Positions 329 through 12,274 are shown, counted from the stretch's first letter. The stretch: 21,248 bases of DNA from a virus (IMGVR_UViG_3300018428_000237:1-21248), one strand, 5' to 3'. Notes: generated by a model from the letters alone, not told the origin. Made by a program: numbers and translations.

Positions 329-356
329 ATTATACACTAAGTCTACTATTTGTCAA
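329..356 (-). promoter_or_regulatory. Sigma70-type promoter for the tRNA pair
   Basis: The minus strand has a perfect -35 TTGACA (351-356) and a perfect -10 TATAAT (329-334) separated by 16 bases. Expected +1 is near 322, about 8 bases before tRNA-Gln. This is a host-RNA-polymerase promoter and implies early expression of both tRNAs. Confidence 0.85.
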
Positions 357-375
357 TCTTAACGGAATTTACCCG

Positions 376-397
376 TATATAAGCAAATGCTTATATA
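376..397. repeat. Perfect 10-bp inverted repeat over the radical SAM stop codon
   Basis: TATATAAGCA and TGCTTATATA are separated by AA, a perfect palindrome that includes the TAA stop of the gene ending at 391. On the minus strand it can form a hairpin but no T-run follows, so it is not a standard intrinsic terminator. It lies about 20 bases upstream of the -35 box of the tRNA promoter. It could be a 3' mRNA stabiliser, a weak terminator or a protein-binding site. Confidence 0.6.
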
Positions 398-1818
398 TCT
401 CCCTCAATACTGTCTAAAAATTTAATAAGTCTAGGGTCTAAAAAGTTATGGTAGTCTCGATTTAATACTTTATCCATCAATACTGTATAATTTTTAAATC
501 TTCGCTGATTGTATAATTTTGTTTCAGCGTCAACTGGATTATCTTCTATGTAATTTTTTAATCGCGATAGAATATATTCGTTATTACTCTTTTGTATCTC
601 GGTTGTAGCAGAATTTATTTTATCTTGATAAAAGTTTAGAGCGTCGTTAAGTAATTCATCAGGAAGCCATTTGGGGTGCAAAGGAGAATCATCATTGTAC
701 AATTCGAAGGTTAAATGTGTTTTATCCATGTTTACAATTGGCGCTAACTTAGAATTCAAGTTGTCATAATCAAATAAATTGTAAGACATAACAACAACTG
801 GTATATTTGTAAAACACCTGATTTTTCCGCTATTCATATAGTCCTTTAATGTGTGTAGTCGTTCTAATAATTTACTATATTGGAACGGTGCTCTTATGTA
901 TTCATATGTACCTTCTGTGCCGTCTATACTTATTAAAAATCTAACATGACGGAAATGCTGTAATAAATCCATTATATCCGTTACAAACTTTGTGCCATTT
1001 GTAGTTATCTCTAATGCAATATGTTCCGCATGGCCTGTTTCAATTGCATGTTTCAGTAAATCTACAAACTGACTACTAACAAATGGCTCTCCACCTGTAC
1101 ATTGTATTTCTCGTAATTGTGGTATAAGTGATTTTACTTCTTCGTAGAGTTCTTGCGGGAAAGAGTCGGCTGACAAATTGCGACTGTGGATAAGATGGTC
1201 AGATCCGTGAAATAAGCTTGTTTCTTGTTTTTCGAGCGCCCAGTCCTTGGACTTTTCTACCTCTGCTACGAATACCCAATCAGTTTTTAAATTATGTTTT
1301 ACTAAGTAGTCATGTATTTTATGATCTAACGTTTTCCACATATCACTACTTCCAGAATTACACATTAAACAATGTAAATTACATTTATTAGAAAATTTTA
1401 AATCTATTGATCTAACTTGTAGATCAGTGGATACAAAGTCAGGGTTAAAATCCATAATGCCTTTAAATGCATCTTCTTCAGCAAAATAAAACCAATTCCC
1501 AAACTGCCGTTTACTTGTGATATGTTTTTCTTGCAGCCAGCAATAATCACAAACCGAAGGTTTTTCACCATTTAATAACTTTGCTCGTAACTCTTGCATT
1601 GGTTTACTGTGAAATGCTTCCTCAATTCCTAAACCGTATGGGACAACTTTTTCATTTAAAAACTCCTGCGTATACTGCTTTGCCCACTTAGATTCCCCAT
1701 CCGCATTAACATAAAAATATTCGGACGCGCTACAGCAAGGTCCGTAGGTCCCCGAATTATGTGTAACTAAATGAATAAAAGGAAAAGCGCAAAATGTATC
1801 AGAAGGATATTTAGACAT
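391..1818 (-). CDS. Radical SAM protein with N-terminal twitch-like Cys cluster (A)
   Basis: A 475-aa iron-sulfur enzyme. The radical SAM signature C146-xxx-C150-xx-C153 binds the 4Fe-4S cluster that cleaves S-adenosylmethionine. It is followed by GGEPF (242-246, SAM binding) and an ISIDG strand typical of the core barrel. Ahead of the core are C10, C28-C29 and C90-xx-C93, a layout like the 'twitch domain' radical SAM proteins that hold an auxiliary cluster. The substrate is unknown. I place the start at ATG 1818, not at an in-frame TTG 15 bases upstream, because a late promoter element (1824-1831) ends exactly 5 bases before this ATG. There is no Shine-Dalgarno sequence, so it may be leaderless. 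A second, divergent family member lies at 2150-3349, and together they suggest sequential or paired modification of one substrate. Confidence 0.9.
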   Translation of the reverse strand: MSKYPSDTFCAFPFIHLVTHNSGTYGPCCSASEYFYVNADGESKWAKQYTQEFLNEKVVPYGLGIEEAFHSKPMQELRAKLLNGEKPSVCDYCWLQEKHITSKRQFGNWFYFAEEDAFKGIMDFNPDFVSTDLQVRSIDLKFSNKCNLHCLMCNSGSSDMWKTLDHKIHDYLVKHNLKTDWVFVAEVEKSKDWALEKQETSLFHGSDHLIHSRNLSADSFPQELYEEVKSLIPQLREIQCTGGEPFVSSQFVDLLKHAIETGHAEHIALEITTNGTKFVTDIMDLLQHFRHVRFLISIDGTEGTYEYIRAPFQYSKLLERLHTLKDYMNSGKIRCFTNIPVVVMSYNLFDYDNLNSKLAPIVNMDKTHLTFELYNDDSPLHPKWLPDELLNDALNFYQDKINSATTEIQKSNNEYILSRLKNYIEDNPVDAETKLYNQRRFKNYTVLMDKVLNRDYHNFLDPRLIKFLDSIEGDI

Positions 1819-1823
1819 ACTGG

Positions 1824-1831
1824 TATTTACC
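1824..1831 (-). promoter_or_regulatory. Late promoter element GGTAAATA, leaderless type
   Basis: GGTAAATA followed by CCAGT and then ATG (1818). The expected T4-type +1 coincides with the A of the start codon. No Shine-Dalgarno sequence is present. Confidence 0.55.
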
Positions 1832-1841
1832 AAGAAGAATA

Positions 1842-2153
1842 TTAACTATTTTCTTTCTTATCTTCGGCAATTATTTTCATAAATTTCAAAAACTGCTCAG
1901 GATATTTTTCAGAAACATGCGTTAGCATCTTAGATGGGGTTAATCCGCCGATGCGATCTTTAATAACTTTGTCGTTATCATAGTCTAGAATTGCAGTAGC
2001 ACGATTTAAAAACTTATTTGTAACTTTATTTAGAAAGTAAACTTCTTCTTGCATATACCAACTGCCGTCTAAGCCAAAATTCTTTGCTTCGGTTCTTGCA
2101 CCTTCTCCTGGACGATACACGTGAACAAATATAATAAAATGTTTTCCTCTCAT
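1842..2153 (-). CDS. Small protein between the two radical SAM genes
   Basis: About 103 aa, beginning MRGKHFIIFVHVYRP, with a hydrophobic beta strand at the N-terminus and a mixed charged remainder. No family is recognised. The chosen ATG overlaps the stop of the upstream radical SAM gene as ATGA, implying translational coupling; another in-frame ATG at 2165 would give 4 more residues and a 16-base overlap. Its position suggests it works with the radical SAM enzymes, for example as a partner or substrate-presenting subunit, but this is inference. It has no Cys residues. Confidence 0.75.
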   Translation of the reverse strand: MRGKHFIIFVHVYRPGEGARTEAKNFGLDGSWYMQEEVYFLNKVTNKFLNRATAILDYDNDKVIKDRIGGLTPSKMLTHVSEKYPEQFLKFMKIIAEDKKENS

Positions 2154-3349
2154 ACCCAGCACCATGGTAATACTCTTTTAGAATTTGTATTTCGTTTATT
2201 GTCTAATTTTTCTAAGTATACTTTCATTTTTTCGTTGTTTTCTCTATTGTATTGGTAATTGTTAATTAATAACTCACACCAATTTTTATCTCTAGTAGAA
2301 ATTGTACTTTGTTCTAACAGTTCTTTAAACTTGATAATTATCTCTGGTTTTAAACTATTAATGCTTAGTAAATCTGGTTCTACACATTCGCCTAATATTA
2401 TGCTACTGTTCTTATATTTAGTTGTAAAATTAATTATATTAACTATGTCTAATAAATTTAATGCAGAAACCGTAGTATTAAAATAAATTTTATCAGGAAA
2501 ACTATTATATAATAACTCGATGTTTAAACAATACGCATCCCAGTCTGTTGGGTACCTAATAATATCGTTTACATTTTCAACACCATCGATACTAATTGTA
2601 ATGCGAACATCCATAAATTGTTGTAATAATACAATTAACTCACTGTTAATGCTTACAGCATTTGTTGTTATTTCTAAATTTATATTTTTTGCAACATCTG
2701 CGTTAACTAAATCCTGTAAAAACTTTAGTGCATTCTTCATATAAAAGGGCTCGCCGCCTGCTATAAAGACACGCTTTAGATTATTAGAAAGAGACAGTAA
2801 TTCTTCCCAATCAGTATATTGCTTTGCTTTGTTGATATGCTCGCGAAGTATGTTTAAATCTTCCTGTGTAGGAAATTGTAAAAATGTACTATTATAAACA
2901 TCAATATCTTCTCCCCACTTTGAGGAATCCCAAGGATTACACATTATGCATTTTAAGTTACAAGTATTGCTCGGACGCAAATCTAAGTCTTGCACTTCTG
3001 ATAACAATTCTCCATTGCTGTTTACTTCAAATGTAAAATCTATATAATTGTCCAGTCTACTTAATCTTCTGCTGTATTTCCCGTCGCTTGCTATTTCGTC
3101 GGCAATACATCTACTGCACATTTCTGGCAATGCACGATCATTGATAAAATTTTGTCTAAGATCTTTTAAAAATGCATGATTCTTAATACTGCTTATTGTA
3201 TCTGTGTAAACTTCTTTACTTTCAGTAGTTTCACAGCAAGGTTTTACACGAAAGCCGTCAGGAGTTGCTAAACAATATAATTGTGTAAAAGGATATAAAC
3301 AAAAGTTTTTATGATTTAAAAAATCATCTTGTGTGAAAGTGTTAGCCAT
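2150..3349 (-). CDS. Radical SAM protein with N-terminal twitch-like Cys cluster (B)
   Basis: A 399-aa paralogue-like relative of the protein at 391-1818. The radical SAM motif is C130-xxx-C134-xx-C137 and is followed by GGEPF (198-202) and ISIDG. N-terminal C17, C38-C39 and C78-xx-C81 match the spacing logic of an auxiliary Fe-S cluster ahead of the core. It ends in LPWCWV. The ATG follows the TAG stop of the HIT-like gene directly (TAGATG), so the two are probably translated together; the ribosome-binding site is weak. Similarity to protein A is limited outside the motifs, so the two probably act on different positions or steps. No substrate can be named. Confidence 0.9.
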   Translation of the reverse strand: MANTFTQDDFLNHKNFCLYPFTQLYCLATPDGFRVKPCCETTESKEVYTDTISSIKNHAFLKDLRQNFINDRALPEMCSRCIADEIASDGKYSRRLSRLDNYIDFTFEVNSNGELLSEVQDLDLRPSNTCNLKCIMCNPWDSSKWGEDIDVYNSTFLQFPTQEDLNILREHINKAKQYTDWEELLSLSNNLKRVFIAGGEPFYMKNALKFLQDLVNADVAKNINLEITTNAVSINSELIVLLQQFMDVRITISIDGVENVNDIIRYPTDWDAYCLNIELLYNSFPDKIYFNTTVSALNLLDIVNIINFTTKYKNSSIILGECVEPDLLSINSLKPEIIIKFKELLEQSTISTRDKNWCELLINNYQYNRENNEKMKVYLEKLDNKRNTNSKRVLPWCWV

Positions 3350-3679
3350 CTACCTATCTATTGGATACTGCTTTCGAATCTTTTCAACCCATTCTGCATT
3401 TGGTAACCAACTAGTAGGTCTAGCATGCCAATGCAAATGATCCGGGACAGTATTTTGCGTAGTATCTATATTGTAATTACCTGACCCAAATTCTTTATCG
3501 GCAACTGCTCGCAACGCTAATTCCATTTCTGCCCAATCTTTAGGAGGAATTGCCATTGTATGATCATACCATACTATCATTGGGATAAGGCATGTCATAC
3601 AATCCATTATAATCCATCTAGGATCCGAATCATCGTATACCTTTAAAATAACGTCTAATTTACAAAGTTCACATGTCAT
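3350..3679 (-). CDS. HIT-like protein with two CxxC pairs
   Basis: About 109 aa. Near the C-terminus Q75-x-V-x-x-H81-L-H83-W-H85 matches the histidine triad of HIT nucleotide hydrolases/transferases, which attack the alpha-phosphate of nucleotides through the middle His. Near the N-terminus C3-xx-C6 corresponds to the zinc Cys pair of many HIT proteins; a second pair, C27-xx-C30, is additional. The frame extends upstream to an ATG at 3712, but that segment encodes an intrinsic terminator hairpin, so I place the start at 3679. No clear Shine-Dalgarno sequence precedes it. It is directly upstream of radical SAM gene B, suggesting a nucleotide- or nucleotidyl-linked intermediate in the same pathway. 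Confidence 0.72.
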   Translation of the reverse strand: MTCELCKLDVILKVYDDSDPRWIIMDCMTCLIPMIVWYDHTMAIPPKDWAEMELALRAVADKEFGSGNYNIDTTQNTVPDHLHWHARPTSWLPNAEWVEKIRKQYPIDR

Positions 3680-3682
3680 ATT

Positions 3683-3710
3683 AAAAAATAAGGGAGCCTC
3701 GAGGGCTCCC
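3683..3710 (-). terminator. Intrinsic terminator after the 37-aa gene
   Basis: On the minus strand GGGAGCC and GGCTCCC form a perfect 7-bp stem (3692-3698 with 3704-3710) around a 5-base loop, followed by TTATTTTTT. It lies 9 bases after the stop of the 37-aa gene and overlaps the extended reading frame of the HIT-like gene, so leakage through it would set expression of the downstream genes. Confidence 0.88.
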
Positions 3711-6082: not shown

Positions 6083-6403
6083 CTATTCCCAATTATCTTC
6101 TTCAACAACATATAAACTATATTTGGCTGTTAATTCATCGCCTTTTTTAATATCTTTCACTGTAACTAAGTATTTCACTGGTATCTGATGCCAGAAACCA
6201 TCTAATACATTACAATTTGGCTTATCGCTGTGATTATAAAAAGCACCAAGTGCTGTTCTTATATATCCGTGTGGAAAGTTTTTATTAGCCACGTGTACTA
6301 TGCCTAATACTACATTCGCTTTAAAGTTCTTTGTGGCAATAACACCAAGGCCATCAATACCGCTTTTGCCTATTGTGATACCATCAGGTAATGGTCTATA
6401 CAT
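6083..6403 (-). CDS. Minimal SET-domain protein lysine methyltransferase
   Basis: 106 aa, about the size of chlorovirus vSET, and essentially just the SET core. Visible signatures are GLGV (18-21) after a KSGIDG turn, the cofactor/knot motif YNHSDKPNC with N57-H58 and N63-C64, and GDELTAKY with E90 and Tyr95 in the position of the catalytic Tyr. SET enzymes transfer methyl groups from S-adenosylmethionine to Lys side chains. The substrate here is unknown; host or phage proteins are possible. AAGGAGT precedes the ATG. A near-consensus sigma70 promoter lies just upstream, so it is likely made early and is the first gene of a transcription unit with the Sm-like gene. Confidence 0.9.
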   Translation of the reverse strand: MYRPLPDGITIGKSGIDGLGVIATKNFKANVVLGIVHVANKNFPHGYIRTALGAFYNHSDKPNCNVLDGFWHQIPVKYLVTVKDIKKGDELTAKYSLYVVEEDNWE

Positions 6404-11364: not shown

Positions 11365-11413
11365 GTTTTCATATTTCATTGTAGTATTCTGTAAACTCTG
11401 AAAATTATTAAAA

Positions 11414-12274
11414 TTAAACAGGAAACCTATCTTTAAATCTCTTATAATATGAATCCAATTGTTTTTTTATTTTAGGAGAATTTAAATTATCAAAATACAA
11501 CGACATATCAATTGTTTCTAAATGAGAGATGCTCTCAAATGTGTCAATAACACTACGAGCAAAGTTTTTATTATTCTCTTCATTTAAATGATTTAAAGTA
11601 TCATCATCGTTTTTGATAAAATACCTTCTAATGCTGTTGTCAGATGTATCTGCAATTTTTCCTGCGTCAAGCAAGTTGTAAATGTGTAATTTTTCCAAAG
11701 GGCAAGACCCTACTGGGCCACTATATATCTGTACGGGAGATGTAGTAACAAAAAACCATATACACTTCTTTTCATTTTTAACTAATAATTCATCAATTTG
11801 TCTAACTATAGATGTATATATAAAGTTATCATATTCTTCATAATAAAAGTATTCCCAATAATTCTTTGCTGTTTCTATAACAGTTTCGGCTATTTTTTCT
11901 GCCTGAGATTTTAAAACTCCATGGTACTTAACTAATCTCCCGACCAATGCGTTCTTATTTCTCCCATTCATTGTTGAGCCGTAGGCAATTGGCAAATTAA
12001 GTCTATTAGGTAGTCTCGCAGGATCAGTAATACACATAACAATATAGTCTGCTTCGTTAATTACATTTAATAAGTCAAGGTATGCGTAAAAAGCAGCCAT
12101 ACCGGGTCTACCTTTACATATAACTTCTGCATCAAAATGCCGTGCTACTATCTCTGGCCAGGCTAAGAACGTAGGCTCTGGTCCCACGTCGTTGTTGCGA
12201 TCACTATCAGCAAAAAATCTATTAATATCTCCGCAGAAACTATCGCCAATAAAAGCAATCTTTGGAGACCTCAT
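11414..12274 (-). CDS. SGNH/GDSL-like hydrolase
   Basis: 286 aa. Block I is IAFIGDSF with Ser12 as the expected nucleophile; block II is GRPGM (Gly55, Gly58); block III-like TDPAR begins at Thr83 (canonical members have GxND here); and NHLNEENNKNFA near the C-terminus supplies His229. SGNH enzymes are esterases or lipases that often remove acyl groups from sugars. The gene sits in the virion-protein block, so it may modify envelope polysaccharides or virion glycans. The start codon follows the previous stop by a few bases, without an SD sequence. The replaced block III residue lowers certainty about activity. Confidence 0.78.
   Translation of the reverse strand: MRSPKIAFIGDSFCGDINRFFADSDRNNDVGPEPTFLAWPEIVARHFDAEVICKGRPGMAAFYAYLDLLNVINEADYIVMCITDPARLPNRLNLPIAYGSTMNGRNKNALVGRLVKYHGVLKSQAEKIAETVIETAKNYWEYFYYEEYDNFIYTSIVRQIDELLVKNEKKCIWFFVTTSPVQIYSGPVGSCPLEKLHIYNLLDAGKIADTSDNSIRRYFIKNDDDTLNHLNEENNKNFARSVIDTFESISHLETIDMSLYFDNLNSPKIKKQLDSYYKRFKDRFPV

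Follow-up and report, generated by a model that had tools for sequence, protein, structure and literature searches.

Do four adjacent genes of a virus, two of them encoding radical S-adenosylmethionine (SAM) enzymes, form one dedicated pathway, or have genes of different origin come to lie side by side? This question is raised by the stretch IMGVR_UViG_3300018428_000237 (21,248 nucleotides; the whole of it is called the window here), in which positions 391-3679 of the minus strand carry four co-oriented, tightly packed genes in the order HIT-like (histidine triad-like), rSAM1, p103 and rSAM2. In the reading preferred here, to which we give about an even chance, the block belongs to an uncultivated marine phage related to PA5oct and Atu_ph07, is conserved within that lineage and contains genes of mixed histories. 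The four genes probably do not make up a single dedicated pathway, because the two small genes, encoding the HIT-like protein and p103, are also found without the enzymes. The four genes are:

3350..3679, minus strand: HIT-like protein, 109 amino acids (aa); motif, cysteine pairs, AlphaFold2 model
2150..3349, minus strand: rSAM1, N-terminal-twitch radical SAM protein, 399 aa; NF033640, PF04055
1842..2153, minus strand: p103, 103 aa; profile matches to jumbo phages, BFVD fold matches
391..1818, minus strand: rSAM2, N-terminal-twitch radical SAM protein, 475 aa; NF033640, PF04055

The start of rSAM2 is the ATG at 1818; a longer open reading frame (ORF) call opens at an upstream TTG, and the reference used for searches (391-1815) lacks the initiator methionine alone. 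The HIT-like gene abuts rSAM1 (TAG followed directly by ATG), rSAM1 and p103 overlap in ATGA, and a 23-nt gap separates p103 from rSAM2. These ORFs and junctions bear out the co-oriented, overlapping arrangement given in a preliminary description made from the sequence alone. Its suggestion of one functional unit is supported in part only: the set is retained in three relatives, but p103 and the HIT-like gene occur apart, and radical SAM arrays elsewhere lack both.

The 103-aa partner gene of the preliminary description is present and kept with the block in related phages, and its own family leads to the jumbo phages. In a profile search of 99 ORFs, p103 matched PA5oct EST35_0292 (3.9e-14), Phosso gp147 (3.1e-11), SCTP-2 gp129 (9.6e-9) and Atu_ph07 AUZ95076 (2.5e-8); the ORF ranking next, an unrelated one, came at 0.18. 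A fold search in BFVD agrees with these matches, while a fold search in the PDB gave none. The homolog lies immediately after the clamp loader in PA5oct, Atu_ph07 and Phosso, and immediately before it in a 322-kb viral contig (L016); the gp41-type helicase of the window is nearest to that of PA5oct (52%). Because of these significant matches, the clamp-loader adjacency and the PA5oct-like helicase, p103 is, as judged from sequence, a core protein of the PA5oct/Atu_ph07-type jumbo-phage lineage. The phage of the window is probably jumbo-sized itself. That p103 is a dedicated radical SAM partner or precursor peptide was rejected as the primary reading, since its family adjoins the clamp loader and the PA5oct genome contains no N-terminal-twitch radical SAM protein above the NF033640 cut-off.

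The window shares with PA5oct, Atu_ph07 and Phosso a homologous p103 and a related helicase, but in those phages p103 sits beside the clamp loader and PhoH as close neighbours, whereas here it lies inside the radical SAM block. In L016, p103, clamp loader, PhoH and HIT-like genes all fall inside about 5 kb, the HIT-like gene being beside PhoH. HIT-like gene and p103, paired in the window, may thus be left over from this old neighbourhood after rearrangement. Near the HIT-like and PhoH genes, L016:8795-14279 also contains ORFs whose resemblance to tryptophan 2,3-dioxygenase and tricarboxylate-transporter genes was judged by eye, and a 2-oxoglutarate-Fe(II) oxygenase (PF13759).

The second small protein can be described as HIT-superfamily-like. 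It contains two CX2C pairs (C3, C6, C27 and C30) and a conserved HLHWHAR motif, which agrees with the HIT motif H-phi-H-phi-H-phi-phi at positions 1-6 of 7, position 7 being Arg:

3425..3439, minus strand: H-L-H-W-H, residues 81-85, within the histidine-triad-like motif; its three His do not vary among 11 phage homologs

The AlphaFold2 model is predicted to adopt a HIT-like topology, and its top Foldseek matches are the HIT-family structures 3i24, 3ohe and 2oik (probability 0.89, TM 0.52, non-significant at E >= 0.16). With the HIT superfamily (PF01230) it shares HxHxH, a similar predicted beta-beta-alpha-beta-beta topology and a CX2C knuckle like that of the cellular HIT protein L168; it differs in the terminal Arg of HLHWHAR, the four conserved cysteines, its shorter length and the lack of a Pfam match. 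The His-triad protein of the preliminary description is HIT-like by its motif, its two CX2C pairs and a putative HIT fold; Pfam gave no HIT match. A cellular origin of the family was considered and rejected: no relative turned up when bacterial and archaeal genomes were scanned, and the sole match of the phage profile in 274 gammaproteobacterial genomes was one distant but genuine PF01230 HIT protein, which also speaks for kinship with that superfamily. The family occurs without radical SAM neighbours in at least six contigs (L147, L149, L150, L151/L162, L160 and L161), where thermonuclease-like, PfkB-kinase and NeuB genes adjoin it. The preliminary description had held that independent occurrence among unrelated neighbours would speak against a unit, and the neighbourhood survey found such occurrence for p103 and the HIT-like gene, though not for the other two.

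The two enzymes are twitch-type radical SAM proteins with auxiliary cysteine sets, as had been proposed. Both exceed the curated full-length cut-off of NF033640 (N_Twi_rSAM; 170 bits), rSAM1 with 242.4 and rSAM2 with 267.2 bits, as well as the Pfam cut-off of PF04055 (Radical_SAM; 29.5 bits), with 48.8 bits (E 1.2e-12) and 42 bits (E 1.4e-10), respectively. In both, five conserved cysteines (C...CC...CX2C) precede the CX3CX2C motif:

2939..2962, minus strand: rSAM1 CX3CX2C (C130, C134, C137), 4Fe-4S/SAM site; invariant in 8 homologs
3107..3301, minus strand: rSAM1 N-terminal twitch-type Cys set (C17, C38, C39, C78, C81); invariant in 8 homologs
1360..1383, minus strand: rSAM2 CX3CX2C; invariant in 8 homologs
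1540..1791, minus strand: rSAM2 N-terminal twitch-type Cys set (C10, C28, C29, C90, C93, counted from the ATG); invariant in 8 homologs

Residues 9-93 of rSAM2 weakly match the SPASM profile PF13186 (E 0.036), and the N-terminal set of either enzyme would bind an auxiliary Fe-S cluster. The NF033640 family has the same layout, a Cys-rich twitch-type domain followed by the radical SAM domain, and no assigned reaction; the block enzymes are members of a known but uncharacterised kind. The rSAM1 clade differs from the family by an additional Trp-Cys pair near the C-terminus (W396-C397), which is invariant in all 8 aligned clade members (ends such as PWCWV and GWCFE) and of which we know no earlier description; Cys397 is a possible extra ligand or redox cysteine.

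A tree of 165 rows places rSAM1 in a clade made up of 16 viral and 2 metagenome-assembled genome rows (Shimodaira-Hasegawa-like approximate likelihood ratio test, SH-aLRT, 97), while the six rows of the rSAM2 clade come from viruses only (SH-aLRT 99). These separate supported clades and a mutual identity of about 25% rule out a recent duplication, and the phylogeny places rSAM1 and rSAM2 in separate, old and anciently diverged clades. Among named phages, tblastn found no match for rSAM2 or the HIT-like protein, and rSAM1 matched vibriophages such as KVP40 at about 25% only. Sequence searches of the PDB with the HIT-like protein, p103 and rSAM1 gave no significant match.

All four genes are present in a near-identical contig (L003/L004/L012), and the radical SAM proteins are 82-97% identical to those of this phage, falling to 71% in L005 and 52% in L015 for rSAM1. 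The order HIT-rSAM1-p103 is retained in these three phages, down to 52% identity. In L005 a complete EF-Tu gene separates p103 from rSAM2, while L015 has the order rSAM2-rSAM3-HIT-rSAM1-p103. The window and all three relatives also have upstream genes in common, namely o5760, o4236, o3886 and the gene for a small SET-domain protein:

6083-6403 of the window, minus strand: small SET-domain protein; PF00856 9.8e-11, PHROG 28741, 82-100% in all relatives

Since the three closest carriers also share flanking genes, the retained order may reflect common descent and is no proof of shared function. Against all three relatives, the ratio of nonsynonymous to synonymous substitution rates (dN/dS) is far below 1 for each block gene, showing purifying selection on all four. 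Relative to the near-identical phage, dS is 0.33 for p103 and 0.28 for rSAM2, compared with 0-0.09 for the HIT-like gene, for rSAM1 and for the genes upstream as far as the SET gene, o4571 (0.22) being the exception, which suggests that positions 391-2153, spanning p103 and rSAM2, are a recombined segment. The EF-Tu of L005 (7592-8782) comprises 396 aa with all three EF-Tu domains, and its best match among the sampled gammaproteobacteria is 84-85% identical. L015:2988-3464 encodes a permuted transfer-messenger RNA (tmRNA) of alphaproteobacterial type (RF04321 3.6e-21, RF01849 9.5e-22) together with tRNA-Gly, -Asp and -Ile.

Two transcription signals bracket the four genes, a terminator upstream of the HIT-like gene and a promoter downstream of rSAM2:

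3692..3710, minus strand: intrinsic terminator GGGAGCC(CTCGA)GGCTCCC-TTATTTTTT, 12 nt upstream of the HIT-like start
329..356, minus strand: sigma-70-type promoter with perfect consensus TTGACA-16-TATAAT, downstream of rSAM2 and preceding tRNA-Gln and tRNA-Glu

A hairpin of other sequence occupies the position of the terminator, upstream of the HIT-like gene, in L005. No promoter of the block's own was identified, and T4-type late promoters (TATAAATA) were discarded as a candidate, with one site in the window, below chance expectation. The block is flanked by tRNA genes.

Bracketing of exactly four genes, overlapping starts and stops, and the retained HIT-rSAM1-p103 order are what a dedicated pathway would predict, in which rSAM1 and rSAM2 act sequentially on one metabolite, the HIT-like protein activates or releases a nucleotide group and p103 serves as chaperone or carrier. 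We nevertheless regard such a pathway as quite improbable: p103 and the HIT-like gene exist without radical SAM genes and radical SAM arrays without either of them, the position of rSAM2 shifts in L015, EF-Tu is inserted in L005, and the flanking genes are likewise conserved in these phages. Unlikely as well is a post-translational modification of p103 or a structural phage protein, similar to that carried out by SPASM/twitch maturases of ribosomally synthesized and post-translationally modified peptides (RiPPs). Weak similarity to SPASM and peptide-maturase profiles is consistent with it, as are the PA5oct homolog of p103, annotated as a structural protein and detected by electrospray ionization tandem mass spectrometry, and the position of rSAM1-clade genes in L025 and L035, surrounded by genes for tail and head. 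Yet p103 is present in phages without twitch radical SAM proteins and its sequence has neither leader/core architecture nor a Cys-rich core, and no maturase model comes near its own cut-off. RiPP systems place a dedicated precursor peptide beside the maturase, whereas apart from p103 the block showed no short gene resembling a precursor, and a partner gene of RiPP type was not seen.

Chemistry on nucleotides, tRNA or the translation machinery, with the HIT-like protein as nucleotide hydrolase, would account for the flanking tRNA genes, for EF-Tu and the permuted tmRNA at the same locus in relatives, and for the HIT-PhoH adjacency in L016, and weak QueE-like and viperin profile scores point the same way. 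These scores are low, however: the QueE-like match reaches only 1e-4 to 4e-3, and with 22.5 and 33.7 bits against a cut-off of 180 (NF038283) a viperin-like antiviral role was rejected. Moreover, tRNA clusters are frequent insertion sites in phages, and at the loci read, radical SAM arrays elsewhere are not beside tRNAs. We regard this explanation, too, as quite improbable.

Under the preferred reading of a conserved stretch of mixed histories, the block would bring together p103, a core protein linked to the clamp loader, a HIT-superfamily protein of phages and two N-terminal-twitch enzymes of ancient divergence, drawn from an expansion that is common among aquatic phages. For the latter, cluster content, reaction and substrate can be proposed as follows. 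The 4Fe-4S cluster bound by CX3CX2C would cleave SAM to a 5'-deoxyadenosyl radical, which would abstract hydrogen from the substrate, while the auxiliary cluster of the N-terminal Cys domain would position or oxidise it. The HIT-like protein, if involved at all, may cleave or transfer a nucleotidyl group. The leading guess for the substrate, and a tentative one, is a sugar or nucleotide-activated sugar that decorates host envelope or virion glycans. Neighbouring genes weakly favour such activated-sugar or glycan decoration. Among 102 neighbour proteins at viral radical SAM loci, 26 are further radical SAM proteins and a few are Asp/Asn hydroxylases or carbamoyltransferases; sugar-related families near phage members include carbamoyltransferase, UDP-glucose/GDP-mannose dehydrogenase, cytidylyltransferase and GT2, and in several cases cellular homologs have genes for GT2 glycosyltransferases, FkbM methyltransferases and carbamoyltransferases in their vicinity. 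SGNH-like ORFs occur at about 16 of 86 viral loci (17 were flagged; the one in L090 is a radical SAM protein and the second in L082 a chance match), and one lies beside the third radical SAM gene of the near-identical phage; the shuffle control gauges the reality of this motif, not its enrichment over phages generally.

Several observations weigh against the reading preferred here. PF01230 matches none of the 11 members of the phage HIT-like family, and profile-profile alignment (hhalign) with four HIT proteins was weak (probability 2.8). The window is a 21-kb fragment of a phage taken to be jumbo-sized, and no glycan gene was recognised adjoining the block in it. Each sugar family has one or two members among the 102 viral neighbours in a census without background control, and no enrichment is therefore claimed. 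Many twitch/SPASM enzymes, furthermore, have peptide substrates.

Radical SAM genes of this family are gained and lost in aquatic phages. The near-identical phage still has a third twitch gene in intact form (L012:3560-4840), of which the window keeps the 3' end only:

11369-11400 of the window, minus strand: 32-nt remnant of the 3' end of a third N-terminal-twitch radical SAM gene (..PEFTEYYNEI*), adjoining an SGNH-like gene at 11414-12274

This remnant is evidence of a recent loss from the window, as read from the sequence, and makes gain and loss visible. Ten virus records, selected for having relatives, contain between 3 and 16 NF033640 matches apiece, and five of these records have 9 to 16; many of the matches are below cut-off. 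In a viral scan, 545 of 600 pattern-matched stretches encode twitch radical SAM relatives; arrays in other aquatic phages contain neither HIT-like gene nor p103. Above the cut-off, NF033640 was found in 2 of 185 sampled gammaproteobacterial genomes. We know of no phage member of the family with a known reaction.

Multi-radical-SAM marine phages are already known from the literature, though uncharacterised: the marine T4-like viral genome TARA_ERS488813_N000010 has 12 radical SAM genes (PMC5332604), and pelagimyophages carry radical SAM cassettes in their host-recognition cluster (PMC7029224), in both cases with no function given. The phage of the window resembles these viruses in having several such genes per genome and in cassette gain and loss; it differs by its lineage, the helicase being nearest to PA5oct, and by the interleaved HIT-like gene and p103.

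Twitch radical SAM genes are therefore numerous in aquatic phages and, above cut-off, rare in the sampled gammaproteobacteria. It is a long shot that the HIT-like protein and two, ancestrally three, N-terminal-twitch enzymes constitute a phage-specific radical pathway, acting on a nucleotidyl-linked substrate and decorating phage or host macromolecules with a modification not known from cells; if so, the same chemistry would underlie the radical SAM arrays of aquatic phages. Telling partners from mere neighbours yields better candidates for assays: in place of p103, these are rSAM1, rSAM2 and the SGNH or sugar genes that lie close to other members of the family.

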